Below the pieces are notes generated by a model. That model saw only the letters and a list, made by a program, of their open reading frames with translations, was not told the DNA's origin and did no database searches. DNA of 64,000 nucleotides from Natribaculum luteum (GTDB lineage Archaea > Halobacteriota > Halobacteria > Halobacteriales > Natrialbaceae), in NCBI RefSeq assembly GCF_023008545.1, contig NZ_CP095397.1:620001-684000 (forward strand), in the 5' to 3' direction. Shown one piece after another: positions 13,350-61,950 of this stretch; within the stretch, counting starts at the first letter, position 1; every line of letters starts with the position of its first letter. The translations under genes were made by a program, and so were the position numbers.

Positions 13350-14114
13350 TCACTCCGGGAACAGCTCCTCGGTGCGCTCGATCCCGTCGATCGACTCGAG
13401 ATCTCCAGTCTCGAGTTCCAGCTCCCGTGCGGCGAGGTTCGCCTCGAGGTGCGCCCGACTGCTCGCTTTCGGGATCACCACCACGTTCTCTTTCGCACAC
13501 AGCCACGCGATCACCACCGCCTCCGGCGTCGTCTCGTGTTTCTCCGCGACCGCGACCACTTCCTCGACCTCGCGGACGCGGCCGCCGGCCAGCGGCGAGT
13601 ACGCCACCAGCGGGTAGTCGTGCTCGCGGGCGTGCTCGAGCGCTCCGTCGGGCTGGAACAGCGGGTGGAACTCGACCTGGTGGGCGGCGATCGGCGACTC
13701 GAGGATCTCGCGGGCGGTCTCGAGGTCGGCGACCGAGAAGTTGCTCAGGCCGACGCTTCGAATCCGCCCCTCCCCGCGGAGCGCGTCGAACGCCGGCAGG
13801 GTCGCCGCCGGCTCGTAGGCCTCGATCGGTCGGTGGACGTACAGCAGGTCGACGGACTCGAGTCCCAGTCGGTCGCTGCTCTCGTCGATCGTCCGACGGA
13901 CGTCGTCGGGTGCGAGGCTGTCCGCCCACACTTTCGTCGCCACGACCAGCTCTTCGCGGGAGACGTCGCTGCGAGCGATTCCCTCGCCGACGACGGTTTC
14001 GTTCCCGTAGATCTGTGCCGTATCGAGGTGCCGGTAGCCGACCTCGAGTGCCGTCGTGATCGTGGCCGGGTCCTCGATCCCCATCGTCCCGAGCCCGACG
14101 GGTGGGAAGTCCAT
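13350..14114 (-). CDS. aldo/keto reductase
   Basis: 254 residues forming a complete AKR barrel. The catalytic tetrad is visible: Asp and Tyr in YRHLDTAQIYGNE, Lys in VVATKVWADS and His in DLLYVHRP. The NADP-binding end includes VVIPKASSRAHLEANL. The ATG at 14114 was chosen because the longer in-frame extension is not protein-like. It reduces carbonyl compounds with NADPH; the natural substrate is unknown. This is the last gene before the base composition drops. Confidence 0.92.
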   Translation of the reverse strand: MDFPPVGLGTMGIEDPATITTALEVGYRHLDTAQIYGNETVVGEGIARSDVSREELVVATKVWADSLAPDDVRRTIDESSDRLGLESVDLLYVHRPIEAYEPAATLPAFDALRGEGRIRSVGLSNFSVADLETAREILESPIAAHQVEFHPLFQPDGALEHAREHDYPLVAYSPLAGGRVREVEEVVAVAEKHETTPEAVVIAWLCAKENVVVIPKASSRAHLEANLAARELELETGDLESIDGIERTEELFPE

Positions 14115-36605: not shown

Positions 36606-38381
36606 TCAGCAGTGTTCAGCAGTAACCCGTTGGAATTGGGTGTACTGACGGGTGGCTGGGCCACACCCATCACCGCCATCCGCATTCGACTCTGACAGGG
36701 CGACAGCGGGCGTTATGACAGCCGACCCACCACCAGCGGTCGCCCCTGTCCGTTCGGGCTCGTAGGCAACAACGCCACGCCCGAACGCGAGCCGCGTGCC
36801 AACGGAACGGCGAGCTGGCACGGTTTCCGAATCCCCCGTATAGGAGGACATGAAACCGTGATCCAGTCCATCCGTCTCGCTGAAGAACACGCGAGCCACG
36901 TTCACCGCCGCGATGTAATCTCGATCACCTTCAAACCCGCACCGAGCGTTGTCGCAGCGGAAGTGCCCACCCCACCACACCTCCTCCGTGTGGTCGGGAG
37001 ACTTGCACGTATGGCCAGTCGAACCACAACGCGGACACGACCGACTCGTCCCCTGCGGGTACACCCGATCCACGTCCACGCCAACGTACTCGCAGCGGTA
37101 CTCGATCTTCTCGATAATCTCGCGCCGCGCCCAACTCGACAGCTCCCACGACAACCCACCTTCACCAGACGGTGGGGACAGCGACCGCAAATCCTCGTGA
37201 ACCACGGCGTCCACGTCGTACACCAAGGCGAGCGCGACGACCTGATTCGCCACATCATGTGTCAACTGCTCGCGCTTGTGCTGGATTTTGGTGTTCACTC
37301 GTTCGTACTCTGCCTGCACTGTTTTGAACGCTGCCGTGTGATCCCGCCCACTCCGGCGAAGTTCCGCCAACTGATCGTTCAACCGCTGTCGCTCCCGGTG
37401 CAGTCGGCGCATCCCGTCACGATCAGTAACTCGAACGAAATGCGGCCGCGACACCTGTTCGCCAGTCTCCTCAACGACGACCGCGGTCACGTCCTTCCGC
37501 ATCCCGGCGTCGAGCGCCAACACGCGTTCTGCATCACCGTCTGTGTCGGCGTTATCGACTTCGACAGGAAACGAGAGTTCGTGGATGTGGTCGCCGTTCT
37601 TCCGCCACGTGGATTGGAACTCTGGGGCTGACAGAGAGCCGTGCTGGGTGAGCGTGTAGAAGGCGTCGTACCCGGCGAGGTCGTGTTCGTGCCACGACCA
37701 GTCCCCACGACGTTCGGGAGTCACAGTGTCAGGGGTTTTCACCTTCACCGTCACCGACTGCTCGTTTTCGTCGTAGTGGTAGTTGACGGCTTGGCCGCTC
37801 GTGGGGCCGTCGTCCGCCGAGTACGGCAACGCGCCGTTGCTGTACTCCGGCGGGTCTTGCAACTCGAAATACGTGTCCGGATACCTTCCGTGGCGGTCGT
37901 AGTACGTGTTGAGTTGGTCGATGAGAACATCAACGTAGCCCCCGGAGAGGTACTCGCCGTCCTCCCACAGTTGTTCTTTGATGCGGCGACGGTGTATTCG
38001 GCGGATTTTGTGCGTGGGGAGGACGCGCTGGATGGCGTAGAAGGCGTCGCGGCGATCGGCGTGGCTCCGCAGGGTTTCTCCGACTTTCTGTAGGATGCAT
38101 CGCCGGATACGTGACGGTACGTACAGTTCGAAATCCGCCGGCGGATCTTCACCGTGGATGGAGTGGTAGAGGGCGTGGTCGTCGAGTTCTTCGAATGGTT
38201 GGTGTTCGTCGAAGTACGTCCACGCCTGATAGTCGGCGTCGTGGATGTCGTCGAGGTATTCCGGCGTCCAGCGGAGGTGGAGGATGCGGGTGGCGACGTG
38301 TTGGACGAACTCGTCTAACCGTTCGTGTGCGTCGTGGTGTGTCTCCGGCAGTCGGAGGGGCAGCGAGAGGTGGTCAGTCAT
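36606..38381 (-). CDS. tnpB: TnpB of IS607 type (RNA-guided nuclease)
   Basis: 591 residues, longer than usual. RuvC residues: D in VLALDAGMRKDVTAVVVEE, E in AVVHEDLRSLSPPSG and D in EGDRDYIAAVNVARV. The zinc ribbon is CPRCGSTGHTCK..FRCDNARCG. About 90 extra residues follow the RuvC-III motif. ATG at 38381 overlaps the tnpA stop. It appears intact. TnpB proteins cut DNA at sites specified by an RNA from the element end; here that RNA would come from the region left of 36700. Confidence 0.88.
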   Translation of the reverse strand: MTDHLSLPLRLPETHHDAHERLDEFVQHVATRILHLRWTPEYLDDIHDADYQAWTYFDEHQPFEELDDHALYHSIHGEDPPADFELYVPSRIRRCILQKVGETLRSHADRRDAFYAIQRVLPTHKIRRIHRRRIKEQLWEDGEYLSGGYVDVLIDQLNTYYDRHGRYPDTYFELQDPPEYSNGALPYSADDGPTSGQAVNYHYDENEQSVTVKVKTPDTVTPERRGDWSWHEHDLAGYDAFYTLTQHGSLSAPEFQSTWRKNGDHIHELSFPVEVDNADTDGDAERVLALDAGMRKDVTAVVVEETGEQVSRPHFVRVTDRDGMRRLHRERQRLNDQLAELRRSGRDHTAAFKTVQAEYERVNTKIQHKREQLTHDVANQVVALALVYDVDAVVHEDLRSLSPPSGEGGLSWELSSWARREIIEKIEYRCEYVGVDVDRVYPQGTSRSCPRCGSTGHTCKSPDHTEEVWWGGHFRCDNARCGFEGDRDYIAAVNVARVFFSETDGLDHGFMSSYTGDSETVPARRSVGTRLAFGRGVVAYEPERTGATAGGGSAVITPAVALSESNADGGDGCGPATRQYTQFQRVTAEHC

Positions 38382-41045: not shown

Positions 41046-41978
41046 ATGGCTACGAGCAGCAGCACTCAGGAAACGTTCGACAATTCGGACACCCGGCACG
41101 ACGAGATGCACAGGACGATCGAAGCATGGATCCAGGACCTGGTCGACGAGGTCGATGACGCCGTCTCGAGCGAGCAGTTCACAGAGTGGTTAGACGTTCA
41201 TAGTCGCTTCCACGACTACTCGCACCGAAACACGCTGTTGATCAAACTCCAATGTCCAGAGGCAACACGCGTTGCTGGCTACCGAACGTGGCAAAACGAG
41301 TTCGACCGGCATGTAAAAGAAGGAGAAACAGCGATCTGGATCTGGGCACCCATCATCGCGAAGCAGTGTCCCGACTGCGGAAACTCGCCGTCGTATCACG
41401 AGCGCAGTGACTGTGAATACGATGAGACACCGCCGGGCAGCTGGGAGAAAGGACTCGTGGGCTTTCGACCAGCGCCCGTCTTCGACATCTCACAGACTGA
41501 CGGCGAGCCACTGCCCGACCTCGAGACAGAAGCAAGGGGACAGACTGATGAATTGATCCCCGCACTCCTCGAGGCAGCAGACGCACTCGAGGTAGACGTA
41601 GAGGTCGTGCCACCCCAGGACTGGTCGCATGGGAACGCCAAGGGCATCTGTGAGTACCGCCCTCAAGAGCAGCCACGCGTCGCTGTCCGTGATCGCGAGA
41701 ACGACGCTGACCTCGCCGTCACGCTCGTTCACGAGTACGCACATGCGCTGTTGCACAGCGTCGATGACGAGGCTGAGCGATCGAAACGTGAACTCGAGGC
41801 CGAAGCGGTCGGCTACATTGTCGGTCGGTATTTCGAACTGGACACGAGTGGGTCGGCGTTCTACCTCGCTGCATGGGAGGGTGACGAACCCGAGACGATC
41901 CTCGATCGCCTCGAGCGAATCAGTTCGACCGCCCAAGAGATCATCGACGTCGTCGACGGGGTGATGGCCGATGAGTGA
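41046..41978 (+). CDS. ArdC-like N-domain with ImmA/IrrE-type zinc metallopeptidase
   Basis: 310 residues. The N-terminal part (FTEWLDVHSRFHDYSHRNTL, ATRVAGYRTWQNEFDRHVKE, GETAIWIWAPI) is the ssDNA-binding domain of ArdC antirestriction proteins. A short cysteine insert (CPDCGNSPSYHERSDC) follows, then the peptidase motif TLVHEYAHALLH (HEXXH) near residue 225 with ERELEAEAVGYIVG-like downstream glutamate (KRELEAEAVGYIVGRYFEL). ArdC proteins on plasmids protect incoming DNA from restriction. The stop overlaps the HalOD1 start. Confidence 0.85.
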   Translation: MATSSSTQETFDNSDTRHDEMHRTIEAWIQDLVDEVDDAVSSEQFTEWLDVHSRFHDYSHRNTLLIKLQCPEATRVAGYRTWQNEFDRHVKEGETAIWIWAPIIAKQCPDCGNSPSYHERSDCEYDETPPGSWEKGLVGFRPAPVFDISQTDGEPLPDLETEARGQTDELIPALLEAADALEVDVEVVPPQDWSHGNAKGICEYRPQEQPRVAVRDRENDADLAVTLVHEYAHALLHSVDDEAERSKRELEAEAVGYIVGRYFELDTSGSAFYLAAWEGDEPETILDRLERISSTAQEIIDVVDGVMADE

Positions 41979-42186
41979 TGGACCGCTTCTGTTCGAGATC
42001 GTCGAGGCACTCGAGAACCAGGGACTCGGCCGTGATGAGTACCAACTGCAGCGGGTGATCGACGTCGAAGCACTCGAGCAACTTGTGGACTCAGCAGATC
42101 CTCACACAGATCTCGGAATCCAATTCACGGTTAGTGAGTTCCGTGTGCTAGTTACAGACTCTGAGGTGACTGTCGATAGAATATAA
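41971..42186 (+). CDS. short HalOD1-like protein
   Basis: 71 residues (LFEIVEALENQGLGRDEYQL, RVIDVEALEQLVDSADPHTD, QFTVSEFRVLVTDSEV). It overlaps the ArdC-like stop by 8 bases, so the two are translated together. Nearly identical to the gene at 45574. Confidence 0.72.
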   Translation: MSDGPLLFEIVEALENQGLGRDEYQLQRVIDVEALEQLVDSADPHTDLGIQFTVSEFRVLVTDSEVTVDRI

Positions 42187-42357
42187 ATCCACGCTTCCAG
42201 GGCGTTTTTAAGGATTTCAGACATCTCCTCTCCGATATCCAGAGGCGTATTCAAATCTGTTTCTTTCGTGAACCGGTTAGTCTGCTGTATACGAGGCATA
42301 TTCGGAGTAGTGTGGAGACACACTAGGTTTTTCAGGACCAGCCTCGTATCGATAGAT

Positions 42358-42609
42358 ATGAGCAGTGAACGGATCGACGCCGAAAGTAAGGTGTCAGGGA
42401 ATCAGGCGAACATCCCAGCTCGAATTCGGCGTGAACTCGGTATCGACGACGGTGATCAGCTTCGGTGGCATATCGAAGACGATGGGAGCGTCCGCGTCCA
42501 AGTCATTCAACAGCAAACGGGAACGTTTGCCGAGTTCGATGGCTACGAGGGCGAGACGGATACCAACGTTACGACCGATCATGACGCTTGGGGCGTCGAT
42601 GTAGAGTAA
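42358..42609 (+). CDS. vapB: AbrB/SpoVT-type antitoxin (VapB-like)
   Basis: 83 residues: ERIDAESKVSGNQANIPARI then RRELGIDDGDQLRWHIEDDG form the swapped-hairpin AbrB DNA-binding domain, followed by an acidic toxin-binding tail. It is followed without gap by the PIN toxin, so it is VapB-like. ATG at 42358 was chosen because the fold starts there. Confidence 0.82.
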   Translation: MSSERIDAESKVSGNQANIPARIRRELGIDDGDQLRWHIEDDGSVRVQVIQQQTGTFAEFDGYEGETDTNVTTDHDAWGVDVE

Positions 42610-43044
42610 ATGCCACGCGCGCTCATCGATACGACAGTTCTCTTCGCAGCAGCATACCGACGGGACAGTTCTCACGAAGTCGCGCTTCCGGTACTCCGTG
42701 GCATCGACAGCGGGGACCTTCCAGAGGCGGTGGTCCTTGACTACGTCCTCGCGGAAACGCTCAACGGGCTCGTTACCCATGCCGGCCACGACGCAGCTGT
42801 TGATCTCCTCAATCGTATTGAGGAAAACGCTCGCTTCCATATCGACTCGCTCACTGCCGACGCCCTTGCAACGGGAAAAGCACTGTTCCGACAGCATGAG
42901 CCGCTGTCTTTTGTCGATAGCTGCATTATTGCGTACATGCAGACCGAGGGGCTCGGCTATCTGTATGCATTCGACGATGACTTCGATGCAGCAGAAGATG
43001 TCTACCGACTCGACACAGCCACGAACCCCTACGATCCTAATTGA
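42610..43044 (+). CDS. vapC: PIN-domain ribonuclease toxin (VapC-like)
   Basis: 144 residues with PIN acidic residues: D in RALIDTTVLFAAAYRRD, E in YVLAETLNGLV, D in LSFVDSCIIAYMQ and D in YAFDDDFDAAEDV. It starts one base after the antitoxin stop. VapC toxins cleave RNA such as initiator tRNA or rRNA in studied cases. Confidence 0.85.
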   Translation: MPRALIDTTVLFAAAYRRDSSHEVALPVLRGIDSGDLPEAVVLDYVLAETLNGLVTHAGHDAAVDLLNRIEENARFHIDSLTADALATGKALFRQHEPLSFVDSCIIAYMQTEGLGYLYAFDDDFDAAEDVYRLDTATNPYDPN

Positions 43045-43131: not shown

Positions 43132-45390
43132 ATGTCTCTCCTCTTCGAGAGTGCGATCGGCAATTTTGACCTCTCGAGTGCTGCCCTCCATTCACCGGCA
43201 GACGAGACGTTCGAACCGGTGCGAGATGATCCCATTCCAATCGATGGGATCGTCGAATATGCGAGCTACCACGACCAACTCGTACATCCCGAGAAAGACG
43301 ACTGGATCGTAATTCCGCTCCATACACGCAATAGCGCAGCACTCTCGGGCGAATATCTCGCCTTCACAGAACACACACTCCATGGCGATGTTTTCATCTA
43401 CGATGATGGCGGCGACTATGCTTCGGTCGATCAAGACACGTTTGCCGTCTCATCGCTAGCCAACCGGGTACGCTTCTGGCACTCCGATTACGCGCCTGAC
43501 GATCCGCCGTCGTACTTCGACTCTCCCATTGCAGAGCGGGAACCACCGCGAAATCCGCTTTCTGACGACAACGACACAGACACCTTCTTTGACGAACTCG
43601 AGTCGTTCGTTCGGGCAGAGATGGACGCCCAACGTGACCAAAACCGAGCGAAAGCAGCCGCGTCAACACCCGAGGCACTCCGTGCCGAGGGATTCGGTGC
43701 GATTCCATCGCTTGCATCCCTCGGCCACCCAGAAGATGGTATCTACCGATTCAGAATCGACGATGGACAAGTCGATCGGCAGCATGACACGCATAGAGTC
43801 GTCCAGAGTGAATTCCGGATCTTCGAAGGAAACGAAGTGCTCCTCCACCCACCAAGCAAAGAGCACTCACCAGATGCGTTCCCGATTCCAGCGACAGTCG
43901 ATACGATCGAGGGACTAACCGTCAGTCTCGCTATCGACTGGTATACGATCGAGAACCGGTCGACTGTCGGTGCGTTCCTCCGCCAGAAGCGACGGAGATT
44001 TGCACTCACCCAACTGTTGAATCCCGTTCCGTACGAGCGCGAACTTGCTGCGATTGCGCGCGTTCGCGACCGTGATGATCAACGCGCGCTCTTGACAGGC
44101 GACACAGCAGTCACCTTCGGGGACACGGCTGGTGTCAAGAGTAGCCAGCAAGACGTCGAACTGAACCAGGAACAGGAGCTTGCAGTGTCCTGTGCCCTCC
44201 TTGCTGATCACCTCTTTTGCATTCACGGGCCGCCAGGCACAGGCAAGACGCGAACGCTCGTCGAAGTCGTCAGGCGCTCAGTCGAGGCTGGGGACGACGT
44301 CCTCGTCTGTGCCGATTCAAACCAAGCCGTCGACAATCTCATTGCTGGCTCGAGCACGGCGACTGAGACCGACGACCGATCACTGCACGCCCATGCACAA
44401 CACGGTGCCGGCGAGTTCGTACTCCGACGCGTGAACGCCAGCAGATCCTCGAACGAGGTCGTCAGCACCAAGTATGCCACCTGCGACGGACTGGCCGATG
44501 TCGTCGCAGCGACGAACAGCAGCGCAGCGACCCTCGAGCGAGAGTTCGATGTCCTCGTCCTCGATGAGGCGACACAGGCGACATGCACCGCCTCGTGTAT
44601 CCCGCTTTCGCGAGCGGACAAAGTGATCCTCGCAGGCGACCACAAGCAGTTGCCGCCATTCAGTGCAACCGAAGAGCCACCGGAGTCTGCAGCCGGTCTC
44701 TCCCTGTTCGAGCACCTCTACGCCGACGGCGGCGTTTACGAGGGTGTTGGCGTCCAGCTCCGAACGCAGTACCGGATGCATCGCGACATCGCCTGGTTTC
44801 CGAACCGCCGCTTCTACGACCGGGCCCTGCGGCAAGGGCGTGACGTTACCGCACTCGAGGACCGGCCTGCATTCGTCGGATATGATATCGGTGGGAGCGA
44901 GGAAACGATCGATCACTCCAAGCGCAACGACGCAGAGGTGCGACTCGTTGCCCATATCGTCGGCGAACTGCTCGCCGATGCAGATCTCAGCCCATCCGAA
45001 ATCGGCGTCATTACGCCATACACGGCTCAGGCTAACGCGATTCAAAAGAAGCTAGCGAGACATCTTGATTCTGGAAGAAACATCACGGTCGACACGATCG
45101 ATTCCTTCCAAGGGAGCGAAAAAGTCGCAATCGTAATTTCGTTAGTTCGGAGTAACACAACTGGCGAGACAGGCTTCCTCGGGCGTCCACTTGATGGTCC
45201 CCGACGGTTGAACGTCGCGATGACTCGTGCCCAACAGTTCTGTGCGATCGTCGGCGACTGGTACACGTTACGCTCATCTCCAGACGGCACCGACGAAAAC
45301 ACTGGCCTGTACGATGACCTCTACTCATTCCTCGAGAGCACCGGGAGACTACGTCAGGTCGAACCGGAGTTCATTCCCGTCCCCAAGTAA
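43132..45390 (+). CDS. superfamily 1 helicase (DNA2/UPF1-like)
   Basis: 752 residues. About 330 N-terminal residues are of unknown fold. The helicase core has Walker A FCIHGPPGTGKTRT, motif Ia VLVCADSNQAVDNL, Walker B DVLVLDEATQATC, motif III ILAGDHKQLPPF, motif IV QLRTQYRMHRDIAWFPNRRF, motif V VDTIDSFQGSEKVAIV and motif VI LNVAMTRAQQFCAIVGD. This is the SF1B DNA2/NAM7 group. Its place among plasmid-type genes suggests a role in replication or defence; not established. Confidence 0.88.
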   Translation: MSLLFESAIGNFDLSSAALHSPADETFEPVRDDPIPIDGIVEYASYHDQLVHPEKDDWIVIPLHTRNSAALSGEYLAFTEHTLHGDVFIYDDGGDYASVDQDTFAVSSLANRVRFWHSDYAPDDPPSYFDSPIAEREPPRNPLSDDNDTDTFFDELESFVRAEMDAQRDQNRAKAAASTPEALRAEGFGAIPSLASLGHPEDGIYRFRIDDGQVDRQHDTHRVVQSEFRIFEGNEVLLHPPSKEHSPDAFPIPATVDTIEGLTVSLAIDWYTIENRSTVGAFLRQKRRRFALTQLLNPVPYERELAAIARVRDRDDQRALLTGDTAVTFGDTAGVKSSQQDVELNQEQELAVSCALLADHLFCIHGPPGTGKTRTLVEVVRRSVEAGDDVLVCADSNQAVDNLIAGSSTATETDDRSLHAHAQHGAGEFVLRRVNASRSSNEVVSTKYATCDGLADVVAATNSSAATLEREFDVLVLDEATQATCTASCIPLSRADKVILAGDHKQLPPFSATEEPPESAAGLSLFEHLYADGGVYEGVGVQLRTQYRMHRDIAWFPNRRFYDRALRQGRDVTALEDRPAFVGYDIGGSEETIDHSKRNDAEVRLVAHIVGELLADADLSPSEIGVITPYTAQANAIQKKLARHLDSGRNITVDTIDSFQGSEKVAIVISLVRSNTTGETGFLGRPLDGPRRLNVAMTRAQQFCAIVGDWYTLRSSPDGTDENTGLYDDLYSFLESTGRLRQVEPEFIPVPK

Positions 45391-45581
45391 CCGTTCGGTT
45401 CGGTTTCTGTGGTGCCAGATGGGTGGACACCATGATAAAACATCCAACGTCAGCAGAGTTCACCACGAACGAGACAACTGACTCGAGGCCAAAGCGATCG
45501 GCTACATCGTTGGGAGATGCTTCGAGTTCGACCGCCCGGGAGATTATCGACGTCGTCGACGGGGTGATGGCCGATGAGTGA
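45391..45581 (+). pseudogene. Chimeric remnant: start of the GHKL gene joined to the end of the ArdC-like gene
   Basis: Positions 45395-45485 match the upstream region and first codons of the gene at 47458 (TTTCTGTGGTGCCA..GGTGGACACCATG, then TNETTDSR). After that the sequence matches the end of the ArdC-like gene at 41046 (RSATSLGD.., STAREIIDVVDGVMADE). The join lies near ACTCGAGGC. It is a deletion chimera and leads into a second HalOD1 copy. Confidence 0.65.
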
Positions 45582-45789
45582 TGGAACGCTTCTGTTCGAG
45601 ATCGTCGAGGCACTCGAGAAGCAGGGACTCGGCCGCAATGAATACCAACTGCAGCGGGTGATCGACGTCGAAGCACTCGAGCAACTTGTGGACTCAGCAG
45701 ATCCACACACTGATCTCGGAATTCAATTCACGGATAGTGAGTTCCGCGTGTTGGTTACAGACTCCAGAGTAACTGTCACTAGAATGTGA
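45574..45789 (+). CDS. short HalOD1-like protein, second copy
   Basis: 71 residues, differing from 41971-42186 at only a few positions (NQGLGRDE versus KQGLGRNE; TVSEF versus TDSEF). It is preceded by the remnant end of an ArdC-like gene, showing that ArdC-HalOD1 was once duplicated as a unit. Confidence 0.72.
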   Translation: MSDGTLLFEIVEALEKQGLGRNEYQLQRVIDVEALEQLVDSADPHTDLGIQFTDSEFRVLVTDSRVTVTRM

Positions 45790-47169: not shown

Positions 47170-47457
47170 TGTTATAGAACGTATATCACAAGAACTTATT
47201 TTCACTCATTCACCCTCAAGTAGGGATAACTGCACAACCTGTACTTATTGAATCTGGGTACGGCATAGTAGATGAGAGACCTATTCTATGACACTCTCAT
47301 CCTAGGTTACTAATCCAGCATTGTATTCCAGAGTACAGACAGGACGAAGCAGGCAGCCATTGTCCGAATCCATCTACCAGTTCCAGCAGCAACCGCGACT
47401 AGCGAAAGCGCTCGAGTTCCGCCGTTCGGTTTCTGTGGTGCCACATGGGCGGACACC

Positions 47458-49167
47458 ATGACAGAACATCTAACACTCTCGGAGTTCGCCACGAATGAGA
47501 CAACTGACTCGAGGCAGGCCAGTCAGCGATCGACTGACGAGACCGTGACGATGACGGCCGACGAGCGGGTCGCAACGTACCTCATCGAAGACCAGATGGC
47601 AGATCTCACAGACGCAATCCGCGAAGCCGTCCAAAACGGCATCGACAGTCCCGGGTCATCCCGTGTGCTGGTTAGCGTCTCGCCCGGGCAATCGCTCATC
47701 CTCGATGACGGCGCTGGCGTCGATCTCGAGTCGACAGAGGGGCGACGCAATCTCTCAGTGCTTGGCGCAGGAAACAAGCAACGATCAGACGACGAGACAA
47801 TTGGTGAGTGGGGCATCGGCAAGGGTGCGATCATCGCAAAGGGTGCCGTTCGTATCTGGAGTCACGACACCGCACTGTGTTTCGACTACCGCGATCAACG
47901 CGACTCGGGACCGTGGGCAGACATCAGCGGTCGCGACGGCCAACTTGTAGAGGTCGACCACCACCTCGAGGGGATGCTCGTCGAGATCGATCACTACGAA
48001 GACGAAGTGCCCGATCCAGACAGCTACCGGTGGCGGCGCTACGTTCGCAATCTTCGCAAACGCTTCGCGTACGTGCAATCCCGGACAGGCGTCTCGGTCG
48101 TGATCAACGGTGAACCGGTCGATCAGGGGGATCCACTCGAGGCAGTGGCCGACTCGCCACACCCATCACTTGTTCGCGAAACCGAGGAGGCGATCCTCGC
48201 ACTCGAGTACACGCCTCACGAGGGACTCGACATCTACAGCAACGGGCTCTACGTCACGACGAAGCGCGAGTACGGACTTGGTGGGCTCGTCGTCTCGAAG
48301 GGGAATCTGACGCTGAACTTTGCGCGTAACGACATCCAGTCCGGCTGTGACCGCTGGCAGCGGATCGACCACGCACTCGAGCAGGCGCGTGATGACCTGT
48401 ACGCAAATGTCTCAGACGACCGGCTGACTGCCGAGAGCCGTGAAGTGATGGTCGAAGCGATGGCGTCCGAGTCATCGGACGAGCAGTGGACCGATCGCAA
48501 ACTGTTCCAGCTGGCAACCGAATCCCGCATCAGCCTCGAGGAGATCCAAGCGGCCCCAAAGATCGGGTGGGTCGACGGCGCTCAGAAAGGCGCAGATAAA
48601 CTCGTCGAGCGTGGCTACGTCGTCCTTGATACGAGCGATGCGGCAACTCAACGACTTCACGACCTTGCCACCGACGAGAACACATCGATAGCGGTGCCGG
48701 AAACGTTCGATGTCGGTGAGCAGGCAACATCAGAGGGCGTTTGGACGGGCTATCATCGCATCGAGGACGAATCGCAGTTGAACGCTGACCAGCGGCGGTA
48801 TCTGCTCTTTGCTCGAGTGTTGGCCTCGGAGCTTGGGATCGATCGGGATGTGCACTATGGTGAAGCGAGTGCCGATGCCTGGACTGACGGCAGAACGTAC
48901 ATCGTGATCACTGACTCCGCTGTAACGAGCCGGCAGCGTGCGGTCTGGATGCACGACCTGTATCTCGTGGTGTTGCACGAAGCAGCCCACGAGACCTCGA
49001 GTACGGATCAACCGTCACACGGACACCATTTCGAGAGCACGTTTCGCTCACTGATCGAGGATCCAGCGAACCGCGAAACGTTTGCGACACTTGTCCAGGC
49101 GGTTGTTGATAATGGGTTCGAGGCTGTGTTCGACGATGCTGAGGTGCAACTGCAGATGGGTGACTGA
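47458..49167 (+). CDS. GHKL-type ATPase with C-terminal HEXXH motif
   Basis: 569 residues. The N-terminal half has the Bergerat-fold motifs: N-box DAIREAVQNGIDS near residue 55, DDGAGVD near 84 and GEWGIGKGAIIAKG near 118, as in Hsp90/MutL/MORC-like ATPases. The C-terminal part contains LYLVVLHEAAHETSSTDQP near residue 500 and GHHFESTF after it, resembling a zinc peptidase site. The two activities in one chain are unusual. It is followed by a small acidic protein on the opposite strand. Function unknown; a plasmid or defence role is possible. Confidence 0.72.
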   Translation: MTEHLTLSEFATNETTDSRQASQRSTDETVTMTADERVATYLIEDQMADLTDAIREAVQNGIDSPGSSRVLVSVSPGQSLILDDGAGVDLESTEGRRNLSVLGAGNKQRSDDETIGEWGIGKGAIIAKGAVRIWSHDTALCFDYRDQRDSGPWADISGRDGQLVEVDHHLEGMLVEIDHYEDEVPDPDSYRWRRYVRNLRKRFAYVQSRTGVSVVINGEPVDQGDPLEAVADSPHPSLVRETEEAILALEYTPHEGLDIYSNGLYVTTKREYGLGGLVVSKGNLTLNFARNDIQSGCDRWQRIDHALEQARDDLYANVSDDRLTAESREVMVEAMASESSDEQWTDRKLFQLATESRISLEEIQAAPKIGWVDGAQKGADKLVERGYVVLDTSDAATQRLHDLATDENTSIAVPETFDVGEQATSEGVWTGYHRIEDESQLNADQRRYLLFARVLASELGIDRDVHYGEASADAWTDGRTYIVITDSAVTSRQRAVWMHDLYLVVLHEAAHETSSTDQPSHGHHFESTFRSLIEDPANRETFATLVQAVVDNGFEAVFDDAEVQLQMGD

Positions 49168-49482: not shown

Positions 49483-49734
49483 TTATTTTTCTGGAGTCGT
49501 TATTCGAAACTCGCCATCGACTTCGTAGACGTAGCCGCGCTCGAGGAGCCGAGTAAGTGCATACGTGGCATCTTCAGGCTCAAGTGCCAGACCGTCAGCG
49601 TCGAGAAGGATCTCGACGGCTTGGTCTCGAGAAAAGGAGTGATCGTCACTGTCGGCCGTCTGTGCACAGAGACGGTCGTAGCACTCGAGAATCCACTCCG
49701 CCAACGGCGGGCGTGGGTCGCTGGAATCAGCCAT
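49483..49734 (-). CDS. small acidic protein of unknown function
   Basis: 83 residues from MADSSDPRPPLAEWILECYD, with RDQAVEILLDADGLALEPED and RLLERGYVYEVDGEFRITTP. The end looks like a winged-helix (LLERGYVYEVDGEFRIT). It may be a small DNA-binding protein. ATGs at 49734 and 49737 are both possible. Confidence 0.6.
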   Translation of the reverse strand: MADSSDPRPPLAEWILECYDRLCAQTADSDDHSFSRDQAVEILLDADGLALEPEDATYALTRLLERGYVYEVDGEFRITTPEK

Positions 49735-49841
49735 CATTGCTCTGTATAGGGAACTGAAACCATTAAACCACCTGACTGCGGCGTCGCTAATTCCAATACT
49801 CGCTCTTATGTCGCCTTTATGGAGAACTGCGGAAAGCCCCA

Positions 49842-54597: not shown

Positions 54598-54957
54598 ATG
54601 GCAGAGGATGCGATCGCTGACGGAACCACGGAAGAAGCTGAGACCTGCTGTGCACCGCCCGGCGATGTCGACTCAGACGCAATGACGACGGACCTCCAAG
54701 TGCTAACCGCGATGGGGAACGACACGCGATACGAACTGCTTCGCCGAATCGCGAACGCGGATGACGGCGTTTGCGTCTGCGATCTCGAAGCCGCAGTCGG
54801 CGTCAGTCAGAGTGCCGTCAGCCAAGCGCTCTCCCGCTTGTACACCGCAGGGCTGGTCACGCGCCGCAAGGAGGGGTCATGGCGGTACTACGAACCGACT
54901 GAGACGACCGCGGCCCTCCTCGAAACACTCGACGACCTGCGAGGTACCCATGAATAA
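54598..54957 (+). CDS. arsR: ArsR-family repressor
   Basis: 119 residues: TDLQVLTAMGNDTRYELLRR then DDGVCVCDLEAAVGVSQSAV and SQALSRLYTAGLVTRRKEGS form the ArsR winged helix. The pair in VCVCDLE matches the arsenic-sensing CxC site of ArsR, and an N-terminal ETCCAPP adds two more cysteines. The stop overlaps the start of arsM, so it represses and senses for arsenite methylation. Confidence 0.9.
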   Translation: MAEDAIADGTTEEAETCCAPPGDVDSDAMTTDLQVLTAMGNDTRYELLRRIANADDGVCVCDLEAAVGVSQSAVSQALSRLYTAGLVTRRKEGSWRYYEPTETTAALLETLDDLRGTHE

Positions 54958-55795
54958 CGATACTGATACGGTGGCCGGTGACCGTGACCCCGAGGAGACC
55001 CGTGAGATGGTGCGCGAACGCTACGGGACTATCGCTTCGGACGGGCAGGACTGCTGTGGCGATGTCGGCATCGATGTCACCGACGACGGTGGGTGCTGTG
55101 GCGGCAACGCGGACGTGACCGGGAGTGAACGCCTCGGCTACGACGCAGACGATGTCGCGTCGGTCGCCGACGGTGCAGACCTCGGCCTCGGGTGTGGAAA
55201 TCCGAAGGCGTTTGCCGAGATGACGGCCGGCGAGACAGTGCTCGACCTTGGCTCCGGTGCCGGCTTCGACTGCTTCCTCGCTGCACAGGAGGTCGGCCCA
55301 GACGGCGACGTCATCGGTGTCGACATGACACCAGAGATGGTCTCGAAAGCGAGGGAAAACGTCACGAAGAACGACACCGACAACGTCGAGTTCCGCCTTG
55401 GCGAGATCAGTCACCTTCCCGTTGCCGACGCGACCGTCGATGTCGTCATCTCGAACTGCGTCGTCAACCTCGCCCCCGAAAAACAACGCGTGTTCGACGA
55501 CGCCTACCGTGTCCTCAAGCCTGGCGGCCGTGTCGCCATCTCAGACGTCGTTCAAACCGCACCGTTCCCCGACGACATCAGGATGGACCCGGACTCGCTA
55601 ACTGGCTGCGTCGCCGGGGCGTCAACCATCGACGCCCTTGAAGCGATGCTCGACAGTGCTGGCTTCGAAGCAATCGAGATAGCGCCCAAGGACGAGAGCA
55701 CTGAGTTCATCAGCGACTGGGACGCTGATCGCGACCTCGGTGACTACCTCGTTTCCGCCACTATCGAGGCCCGAAAACCAGCATACGACACATGA
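54950..55795 (+). CDS. arsM: arsenite S-adenosylmethionine methyltransferase ArsM
   Basis: 281 residues. Motif I is VLDLGSGAGFDCFLAAQEVG, then IGVDMTPEMVSKARENV and VVISNCVVNLAPEKQRVFDD. Cysteines match ArsM: a CC pair in GQDCCGDVG, GGCCGG, LGLGCGNP, SNCVVNL and LTGCVAGA. The reaction turns As(III) into methylated forms. The start overlaps arsR by 8 bases (ATGAATAA). Base composition is closer to the core than to the surrounding relics. Confidence 0.9.
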   Translation: MNNDTDTVAGDRDPEETREMVRERYGTIASDGQDCCGDVGIDVTDDGGCCGGNADVTGSERLGYDADDVASVADGADLGLGCGNPKAFAEMTAGETVLDLGSGAGFDCFLAAQEVGPDGDVIGVDMTPEMVSKARENVTKNDTDNVEFRLGEISHLPVADATVDVVISNCVVNLAPEKQRVFDDAYRVLKPGGRVAISDVVQTAPFPDDIRMDPDSLTGCVAGASTIDALEAMLDSAGFEAIEIAPKDESTEFISDWDADRDLGDYLVSATIEARKPAYDT

Positions 55796-57021: not shown

Positions 57022-58597
57022 GTAGTTGGATAGCGATTTGCCGTCAGACCGATTTCGTAGCAGTCTCATGAATGGTCTCTCAATGGTGAATCAAGTGTGT
57101 CGCTGGGGGTTAGCGGATCGCTGGAATCGATAGATTCCACGATCCGCACCGAGAACAGTACGCATCTCCGCCAGCAACTCGTCGTCAAAGAGCTTGAGAA
57201 CCGACTTCTTCGTCGTCAGATCACTGCAAAACAACAGCAGATCGAACAACTTGAGGCTCGCCTCAAGCGGTACGAAAACCCAAACACACCTCCCAGTAAG
57301 CAGGGTGGCGTGGCTGGATCACCTGGCAACGATGACAGCGACGAGGAAGAGAACGAAGACCAAGGGGACGACGCTGGCGGCGACGCTGACGCCGCCAGCG
57401 GCTCCTCTCCAGGACGTGACGAAGGTCACGAAGGAACAACTCGACCGCCTCCGGAACCAGAGGAGACTATTCGAGTCGATCAGGGATATTGCCCAGACTG
57501 TGAGCAAATCCTCTCTAACCCGGACAGCTACATCTCACGGACGATTATCGACATACCTCTCCCTATTCCAACCACTGTCGTCGAGTACGAACTCGGCAAA
57601 CACCGCTGTTCCTGTGGAAACGAAGTCGTTGCTGAACATCCAGACTGCCCGGAAACCGGGCGGTTTGGGCCAAATATCATGGCCCAAACCGCCCTCGGTA
57701 GGTTCCATCAGCGACTTCCAAACCGTAAACAGGCGGAGCTGTTTGACTGGGAACTCGATACACCCATCTCTCATCGGACGATCTACAACCTGACCAAGCG
57801 GGTCGCAGACCGGCTGCGACCCGCGTATGACGATGTCAAAGCCCGTATTCAGGAAAGTGACGTCGTCTACTGCGATGAAACGGGATTTCCTGTTGACGGA
57901 GAGCAACACTGGGCGTGGACGTTCGTTACTGACGAAGAAGTGCTGTTCTGGGTTGATGAGAGTCGTGGAAGTCAGGTGTTAGAGGACGTCCTCGGCGAGG
58001 ACTTCGCCGAGGACTCAACGCTCAGCTGTGACGGTTGGTCAGCGTATCCGAGCTATCACTCGAAGCTCAGCGGTGCTGGGCACATCTGTTGCGGGAGGCG
58101 GAGTACGTTGCTGAACGGTACGAGGAAGCAGAGAGGTTGTCTGAGGAGTTACACGCTCTCCATGACGATTTAACGGCGTTCGACGAGGAGGATCCGTCCG
58201 CCTCCGCCCGCGAGCAAAAGCGGGCGGAGGCGTCGTTACATCTGGAAGGCCTGATCAGGGAAGACTACGAGGCACAGGAGGTCAAGAAGCTGATCGAGAA
58301 GATCAGGAACGGGTTAGGGCACTGGCTGACGTTCGTTACAGAGCCAGACGTCGATTCGACGAATAATCGCGCAGAGCGCGCTCTGCGCGAGCAAGTTGTG
58401 CTGCGGAAGATGTTCCGGACCCTCCGCTCAGCCGAAGGGGTCCAGATTCACGAGACGATTACGACCATGTTAGCCACGTGGAAACGACGAGGACTTGATC
58501 CGCCTGAACAGCTCCAGTCCATCCTCGGTGGGCAAGAACTCAGATTAGGATGAGAGGCATCACTGGCCGGTGAATCCTGGTCACGCTATCCAACTAC
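57022..58597 (+). mobile_element. IS66-type insertion sequence, copy 2
   Basis: 1576 bp, one base shorter than copy 1. Flanked by a perfect 8-bp duplication CCGAGCGA (57014-57021 and 58598-58605), the expected size for IS66. Ends GTAGTTGGATAGCG/CGCTATCCAACTAC. Confidence 0.95.
57097..58553 (+). pseudogene. IS66 transposase with one-base deletion
   Basis: Same as the gene at 15356 until about 58065, where CTCCAGCGG of copy 1 has become CTCAGCGG. The shift truncates the protein at 358 codons, before the catalytic glutamate; the remaining DDE part is in another frame (58035-58553). A nearby A-to-T change is the only other difference noticed. Confidence 0.92.
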
Positions 58598-60386: not shown

Positions 60387-61950
60387 CTACCCCGGCTGTG
60401 AACTTACGGGTTTGCCGACGCTGGTTTGGTCACCTGGACATGACTGTTCCCCAAAACTCGCGGGTATCCAGTCATGCCCATTCCACTCCCAGTACGCCCC
60501 TGATTCGGGTGCGTCCCTATCGCGTTCAGCGGAGAGGGCGGCAGGCCGTGCCATCGGCCCAACTTCCGACCGCAATACGTTCCACGCCCCTACTACGTCA
60601 CTATGTGCATCTAATTCGCAGTCATGGCACCGGAACGAGTCACCATCCCGACCCACATCACTACTTCCACACTCAGGACACTGACTGCTTGAATCAGCCT
60701 CACTTACTTCTTCGACAGTGATACCGACATCACCGAACGTGAGTTCGATTCGGTCTACAAGTTGGCGATGGGACCAGAACGAATGCGTCTTCTCATTCAC
60801 CTCTGCCGACCAATGTGTGTCCAATACGTCAGTTAGATCGCCAACGTACACTGTATCAACGTGCCGTTCTAATAGCCAGTCAGCCGCATGTTTCACCGCA
60901 GCATCACGACTATGATCACGCTTCTCCCCACGCTCATCGTACACACGCTGAATGCGTTTGCTCGTGTATTGATCGTCAGGGAGTTGTGATTGTAGTTCAG
61001 CGATTACTTCGGTGACGGTGTGGAACCGTTCAAACTCTGGACGGGCATGATACACGGCGGTTTCGCCGGTAGTGGTGACGATGGTAAGCGTGTTGTTTGC
61101 ACCTATGTCGATAGCGGCTTCATGTGTCATGTTCTCGGAATCGAGTGTATGAGTGAATGCATCCAGTCGCTGTTTCTGTATGTTGTCTGGCCGAATGCGA
61201 ACCGGATGCGTGACACGAAGCACGTCTGCCGCTTCGTCATAGACGAGTTCTAACCGTGCATCGTCACCGCTCCATTGTGGGTTGCCTCGGACTTCAAGCG
61301 TGAGACGCTCTCGTCCTCCAAGGCCGTATTTTTCTTTGAGTGCTTTGCCGACGCCGAACTCTAGTGTACTTTGTTTTTCGTTCCAGTCGAACGTGTAGAG
61401 GTCGTTTCTGACGAGGCCGTGAAGTTCGTAGCCGTTTTCTCGATTACCCCAGTATCCGGGTGGACTGGGTTTCTCCGTGATGGTGGTGCTGGTTTTGTCG
61501 TGGTATTTGTTGAGACGCTCTTGTGTAGCACATTGTTGATGCGGAGCCGTCCCGCGATTCTGCAGCGAGTGCAGTAGATCGCGAACTTGCATCTCAGTGG
61601 CTCTGGCGGACAAGTCTTGACTCGAGCCGACGACGGGAAACTGTATCAACAATCTCCGCCACAAGAGCGTTGTTGAGAAGTCGGAAGTGGCTTCGCCATG
61701 CTTCACTGTTTTTACGGGCGAGTTGCTGGCAACTTGCTTTGCCGAGTATGGGAGCGTAGTCATCGTAAAGATCGGTGTATTCTGCGTCCCATACATCGCC
61801 GTTTTCAGTGAAGTATTGTTGTCGGCGTCGGTAGGTGATTTGGTTCCACAATGAGGCGTGGGCGGCCAACCACCCGAATAGACATTGCCGATACCGTTCG
61901 GTGGTGGGTTCGGCAATGTATTCGTTAGTGCGTTGTGGTCGGCTGCTCAC
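60387..61950 (-). pseudogene. tnpB: TnpB interrupted by a MITE
   Basis: The true N-terminus is read from 61950 (MSSRPQRTNEYIAEPTTERY, GKASCQQLARKNSEAWRSHF), then the MITE at 61516-61669 intervenes, then the body continues in another frame (KYHDKTSTTITEKPSPPGYW, AIDIGANNTLTIVTTTGE, DTVYVGDLTDVLDTHW, CPECGSSDVGRD, DAHSDVVGAWNVLRS). Insert plus duplication is 163 bases, so the frame is lost. The 509-codon open frame that spans the insertion reads MITE sequence and the wrong upstream frame. Confidence 0.85.
61516..61669. mobile_element. 154-bp MITE, copy 2
   Basis: Same length and nearly the same sequence as 32976-33129, in opposite orientation. Ends CGCTCTTGTG and CACAAGAGCG. Flanked by a perfect 9-bp duplication TTGTTGAGA (61507-61515 and 61670-61678). 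No coding capacity; the transposase that moves it was not identified in the window. Confidence 0.85.

Follow-up and report, generated by a model that had tools for sequence, protein, structure and literature searches.

A GHKL ATPase–zincin-like fusion protein carried on mobile DNA of haloarchaea and bacteria

RIIA orthologues are described as GHKL ATPases with highly variable C-terminal domains that take part in phage counter-defence (PMC7824862), and the paraMORC proteins are further GHKL ATPases whose C-terminal domains vary (PMC2292703). Zincins are common in the polyvalent proteins of plasmids and phages (PMC5512222). The antirestriction protein ArdC contains a Spartan-like metalloprotease domain whose protease site is dispensable for antirestriction (PMC7213743). 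GHKL ATPases with differing C-termini, such as RIIA and paraMORC, recur in conflicts between hosts and mobile elements; a GHKL ATPase joined to a recognisable protease offers a direct handle on the clients of such proteins. Such a protein was analysed here in a 64,000-nucleotide stretch of DNA (the window; C1:620001–684000) from the 4.6-Mb genome of the haloarchaeon Natribaculum luteum. Although GHKL ATPases with variable C-terminal domains are already known (RIIA, paraMORC), this zincin fusion is apparently undescribed: no description of it was found in open-access papers, subscription literature not being covered.

The gene was intact from ATG to stop and encoded a protein of 569 aa (P0001), as shown in Table 1. 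The sequence-only reading had recognized the motifs of a GHKL or Bergerat-fold ATPase, and these were present and invariant in an alignment of eight archaeal and bacterial relatives: E56, N60, and D63 of the N-box; D83, G85, and G87 of the DDGAG motif; and the second glycine motif, G116..G121. K281, N287, and A289-R290-N291 of the S5 region were also invariant in this alignment, as were R463 and T476. The P0001 family possesses the N-box, the DxGxG and second glycine motifs, and the S5-type middle domain of the GHKL ATPase superfamily, and K281 may be the basic catalytic residue contributed by the S5-type middle domain. P0001 alone matched no Pfam model, and HATPase_c_3 (PF13589) scored above the cut-off in its bacterial and Halobaculum relatives (P0002–P0008). 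The full-length AlphaFold model had a mean pLDDT of 79, with residues 103–121, the region of the second glycine motif, modelled at low confidence. According to Foldseek analysis, the best solved matches of the N-terminal and middle part were Hsp90 and TRAP1 (E value, ∼1e-16), and the matches of the full-length model among viral models included RIIA proteins and phage topoisomerases. The best matches at the profile level were HtpG and MutL. Comparison among haloarchaeal copies gave a dN/dS of 0.03–0.18 in every domain; all domains of the protein are under strong purifying selection.

Table 1. Features of the GHKL–zincin gene and its surroundings, in window positions.
Feature	Position	Strand	Evidence
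ArdC-like protein (ArdC-N ssDNA-binding + M78-type HExxH domain)	41046..41978	+	PF08401, PF06114, synteny
71-aa HalOD1-type ORF overlapping ardC end	41971..42186	+	ORF list; annotated homologue beside ardC
MazE-like antitoxin and PIN toxin pair, variable cargo	42268..43044	+	Pfam; absent from most copies
SF1 helicase (AAA_11/AAA_12, Upf1-like)	43132..45390	+	Pfam, synteny
Second GHKL gene remnant: upstream bases and first ~20 codons	45398..45489	+	86% identical to 47424-47515
Second copy of ardC 3' end and HalOD1 ORF	45525..45785	+	92% identical to 41922-42182
GHKL ATPase-zincin fusion protein	47458..49167	+	ORF and homologues
GHKL (Bergerat) ATP-binding domain, residues ~34-150	47557..47907	+	Invariant columns, HATPase_c_3 in relatives, Hsp90 fold match
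S5/transducer-like middle domain, residues ~151-316, with K281 and A289-R290-N291	47908..48405	+	Invariance, secondary structure, Foldseek Hsp90/TRAP1 match
C-terminal zincin-like domain, residues 424-569 (alpha-beta-beta-beta-active-site helix-helix), conserved G-x(6)-WT strand	48727..49164	+	AF2, Foldseek, TIGR04338
HExxH motif H507-E508-A-A-H511	48976..48990	+	Sequence and alignments
H521-x3-F525, predicted third zinc ligand and packing residue	49018..49032	+	Invariance, spacing table
Convergent small ORF, ~85-90 aa, conserved downstream of GHKL gene	49483..49740	-	ORF and synteny

A zinc peptidase site had been read from HEAAH together with GHHFESTF 25 residues further on. The HEAAH part of this claim stood, but the second part was wrong: G522 lies only 11 residues after H511, and the conserved residues are H521, at a spacing of x9 after H511, and F525. 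H507, E508, H511, H521, and F525 were invariant across the eight aligned archaeal and bacterial proteins, and the zinc signature of the family is HExxH-x(7-10)-H-x3-F. HExxH by itself occurred in approximately 4% of shuffled P0001 sequences and is therefore weak evidence; a C-terminal HExxH-x(5-14)-H-x3-F occurred in approximately 0.05% of shuffles (99/200,000). The family signature was kept in 62 of 69 full-length entries, which include some duplicate records of one locus, and the seven exceptions were records of four viral contigs. Judged by this conservation, the longer signature is real, and the motif is retained in homologues, so that the sequence-only reading was not refuted on this point. 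H521, ten residues after H511, is likely the third zinc ligand; among the complete relatives examined, it is missing only from two viral lineages. The clan MA signature, an HExxH helix with a downstream third ligand, was thus recognized, H507, E508, H511, and H521 being invariant among the zincin-bearing members. The viral-contig relatives L074, L075, L076, and L077 keep the ATPase part and have lost the HExxH site. In a maximum-likelihood tree, the HExxH-less viral relatives formed two separate groups nested among HExxH-bearing relatives, which makes HExxH the ancestral state there, with at least two losses.

When modelled alone (AF2), the C-terminal domain reached a pLDDT of 87 and a pTM of 0.83. 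The model comprises a helix, then three strands, then the active-site helix, which ends at the HExxH, and finally a helix from F525. HEAAH lies on the predicted active-site helix and H521 just before the next helix, and the sequence-only reading was not refuted by this arrangement. The best solved Foldseek matches of the domain were the zincins proabylysin, projannalysin, and selecase, with a best E value of only 0.04; lower matches included Ste24, BlaR1, PprI, archaemetzincin, and Spartan. These fold matches are individually weak and none is significant, yet the list appears consistent, consisting mostly of zincins. NCBIfam TIGR04338 (HEXXH) was weakly matched in the C-terminal domain of 9 of 16 members, and none of the models searched describes the family as a whole. 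The earlier suggestion of a Bergerat ATPase fused to a zincin-like domain is supported by the motifs, the models, Foldseek, and TIGR04338; as a whole, the earlier interpretation is partly supported.

Like T4 RIIA and RIIA-like proteins, the fusion has a GHKL domain at its N-terminus and a middle domain after it; it matches many RIIA models in Foldseek and likewise resides on mobile or viral DNA. The C-terminus of RIIA also differs from lineage to lineage (PMC7824862). However, HExxH is absent from T4 RIIA (P0009). The PHROG RIIA models match P0002 in the ATPase domain only, and membership of the RIIA family was rejected, the hhalign probability with T4 RIIA being 6%, which is not significant. 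Hsp90/TRAP1, MutL, MORC, and paraMORC share the GHKL motifs and the S5-type middle domain but carry a C-terminal dimerisation, nuclease, or other domain in place of the zincin-like domain. The restriction endonuclease operon that is a trait of MORC and paraMORC was absent around the haloarchaeal copies; methyltransferase genes lie near some bacterial relatives.

Among metallopeptidases, the minigluzincins (abylysin, jannalysin, and selecase) have a small zincin core with an HExxH helix and gave the best C-terminal fold matches, whereas the matched chains are approximately 105 aa alone, without a fused ATPase. The third ligand of gluzincins is Glu. Minigluzincin membership was rejected because the invariant downstream candidate ligand, H521, is His and not Glu. 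SPRTN carries an HExxH...H-x3-F pattern, and the SprT/Spartan proteins resemble the fusion in this pattern and in weak profile and fold matches; membership was rejected, with a best value of 0.051 for Pfam PF10263 in 1 of 16 members. ArdC is plasmid-borne, has a zincin-type C-terminal domain, and is a genetic neighbour in haloarchaea, but in a profile comparison the alignment between its zincin domain and that of the fusion is confined to the region of the HExxH helix. Membership of ArdC was also rejected, since Pfam analysis placed ArdC-N in the separate neighbour (41046–41978) and not in P0001. The TIGR04338 HEXXH_Rv0185 metallohydrolases match the C-terminal domain at 7e-6, but the score is 26 bits against a cut-off of 90 and the model describes a 161-position protein without an ATPase part. 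None of the PADLOC defence models matched over the length of the protein, and the weak matches were confined to the ATPase domain.

Copies with 84–98% identity were found on plasmids and contigs of Natrinema, Natronorubrum, Natribaculum, Haloterrigena, and Natrialba, and several copies per haloarchaeal genome are common. The genome of the window itself has a second copy with 90% identity (C3:34704–36410) and a broken copy on C2. Degenerate second GHKL fragments near intact copies or on the same contigs (L030:19061–19864, L014:19202–19794, L032, and L034) suggest frequent duplication and decay. Full-length distant relatives with 20–34% identity, reached via tblastn of plasmids, are located on proteobacterial and Deinococcus plasmids and on IMG/VR contigs; the plasmid relatives include those of Halobaculum (34%), Methylibium, Photobacterium, Pseudomonas, Bosea, Thioalkalivibrio, and Variovorax. 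A bacterial query matched 197 plasmid records, 91 of them predicted to be conjugative and 41 mobilizable, with pAB3-type Acinetobacter plasmids among the matches, including pAB3 of Acinetobacter ATCC 17978. Searches of Pfam, PDB sequences, and INPHARED phages with P0001 alone returned nothing useful, and a viral-contig scan with P0001 alone gave no matches. A terminase (one Pfam family) was detected in only 2 of 18 IMG/VR contigs carrying relatives and no tail-sheath match above the cut-off was obtained in 14; therefore, the contigs cannot all be called phages. The family profile was matched (E value, 1e-20) by four of 393 sampled genomes of the archaeal phylum. The gene is patchily present and tied to mobile DNA, and its products form a real protein family that is apparently undescribed.

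The sequence-only reading had described a plasmid-like block with an ArdC-like protein, a helicase, and toxin–antitoxin genes. All of these are present in the window, where the ArdC-like gene, the 71-aa HalOD1-type ORF, the MazE/PIN pair, the SF1 helicase, and the GHKL–zincin gene follow one another, but the ArdC linkage is specific to haloarchaea. The toxin–antitoxin genes vary from copy to copy, and the PIN toxin–antitoxin was accordingly rejected as part of the unit. In counts made by hand over 25 intact haloarchaeal copies, not including the window copy, ardC lies upstream on the same strand in 22 and a helicase is present in 8, in several of them some 40 bp upstream of the GHKL gene. A small convergent ORF (∼90 aa) is near the gene in 23, normally just downstream. 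The window copy arose by recombination between two ardC–GHKL operons, the joining of which would be expected to leave the observed repeats of the ardC end and of the GHKL start. ArdC was rejected as an obligate partner because ardC occurs without the GHKL–zincin gene in 8 of 10 relatives carrying ardC and ArdC-N was absent from all 24 replicons with distant relatives; only in haloarchaea does ArdC regularly accompany the gene.

Around the copies on bacterial plasmids, gene content differs widely among the records examined. Genes near the bacterial relatives include those for DNA cytosine methyltransferases, SSB, Y-family polymerase, ParAB, topoisomerase III, ERCC4-domain proteins, and PAPS-reductase/DndB, and methyltransferase, SSB, or replication genes are often nearby. 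In Acinetobacter pAB3 (L111:7099–10115), the gene lies directly downstream of, and in the same orientation as, a gene for an M48 lipoprotein-type metallopeptidase, which looks like a separate lipoprotein-type YfgC protein.

The protein combines two conserved active sites, is under selection, and is carried on mobile DNA. We propose, with a probability of roughly 0.4, that it is an ATP-gated clamp-protease of mobile elements that acts on host or DNA-bound proteins during establishment. The protein would dimerise, and ATP binding would close its N-domains around a client or DNA, as in the GHKL proteins Hsp90 and MutL. The closed clamp would hand the client to the zinc site, where E508 is predicted to activate water for zinc-dependent peptide cleavage. 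In its working it would resemble RIIA or Hsp90 combined with SprT, although it is not a member of the RIIA or SprT families in the strict sense. Less certainly, the client may belong to the host or be bound to DNA and stand in the way of a plasmid or virus that has just entered; a component of restriction or of another defence, or a protein jammed on DNA, would be an example. The gene would then serve establishment or counter-defence, beside ArdC in haloarchaea, and on some bacterial plasmids the protein may work beside SSB, methyltransferase, and replication genes. This role is suggested by the company kept (ArdC, SSB, and methyltransferases) and by analogy with RIIA (PMC7824862). The retention of both active sites across archaea and bacteria at 20–34% identity argues for the clamp-protease, as do the purifying selection on every domain, the Hsp90/TRAP1 and RIIA matches, the zincins among the C-terminal fold matches, the tie to mobile DNA, the ardC upstream of most haloarchaeal copies, and the genes found nearby on bacterial plasmids. 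The absence of ArdC from the distant replicons tested, the varied bacterial neighbours, the individual weakness of the zincin fold matches, the non-significant comparison with T4 RIIA, and the low-confidence modelling of residues 103–121 argue against it. Proteolysis would not always be needed, since two viral lineages lost HExxH and kept the rest. Moreover, because the metalloprotease site of ArdC is dispensable, proximity to ArdC alone does not make proteolysis the antirestriction activity.

Plasmid housekeeping would be another role for such a protein, in which a SPRTN-like protease clears proteins crosslinked or stalled on the DNA of the element, the ATPase serves as a DNA clamp, and replication or transfer intermediates are protected. 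The local HExxH...H-x3-F pattern is shared with SPRTN, Spartan chains were weakly matched (E value of ∼0.7 in the profile search and rank 28 in the fold search), an SF1 helicase adjoins the gene in several haloarchaeal copies, and SSB, Y-family polymerase, topoisomerase, or ERCC4 genes lie near bacterial copies. Nevertheless, this role is unlikely: the distribution on plasmids is patchy, unlike that of a general replication gene, a DNA-binding module was not identified in the protein, and the zinc sites were lost in two viral lineages. The sequence-only reading had inferred a putative defence or plasmid-maintenance function. Element-borne defence or exclusion, in which the ATPase would detect an incoming element and activate the protease, harming the cell or blocking the rival, is somewhat less probable than housekeeping. 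The anticipated linkage of homologues with defence genes did not emerge from the neighbourhood survey, a conserved defence partner was absent from the neighbourhoods examined, and the carrier elements are themselves targets of defence. GHKL ATPases do occur in restriction-linked systems, namely MORC and paraMORC (PMC2292703), and the N-domain is weakly similar to PADLOC TmtA, MzaB, and a type II restriction enzyme family, but the PADLOC similarity is limited to the ATPase domain.

Regulatory self-processing seems improbable. Here, the zincin would cut its own protein or a plasmid repressor, like proteases of the IrrE/ImmA type, and host proteins would not be targeted. The minigluzincins, whose folds are the closest, occur in latent form according to the titles of 4jiu and 4jix, and HTH genes lie near several copies; these genes differ between copies, however, and bacteria and archaea have no conserved repressor partner in common. 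Least probable of all is that the HExxH domain only holds a structural zinc or binds clients and cleaves nothing, leaving the ATPase as the working part. Such a domain is consistent with the two viral lineages without HExxH, which keep the ATPase part and, in one case, also the AWTDG strand, but the general-base glutamate, needless in a structural zinc site, was invariant in every HExxH-bearing member aligned.

The fusion may help mobile DNA to cope with host proteins. It is possible, though a more tentative proposal, that it represents a widespread and so far unnamed class of ATP-gated clamp-proteases, Hsp90/RIIA-like machines with a built-in zinc protease that archaeal and bacterial plasmids and viruses would use during their establishment to remove proteins of host defence or proteins bound to DNA. 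The presence of the gene on large conjugative plasmids, including pAB3, and on Pseudomonas plasmids makes a role in plasmid spread testable in laboratory strains.

The G + C content of the window drops near position 14000 from approximately 0.66 to 0.53–0.60, and the GHKL–zincin gene is inside this low-G + C island. The island spans positions 14000–62000 against a background of approximately 0.66, and an IS66-type transposase is encoded at 57097–58173. TnpB-like proteins with a Cas12f1-like TNB domain are encoded on the minus strand at 36606–38381 and 60387–61916, and the plus strand at 54598–55795 carries genes for an ArsR-like regulator and an ArsM-like methyltransferase, whose listed frames overlap.
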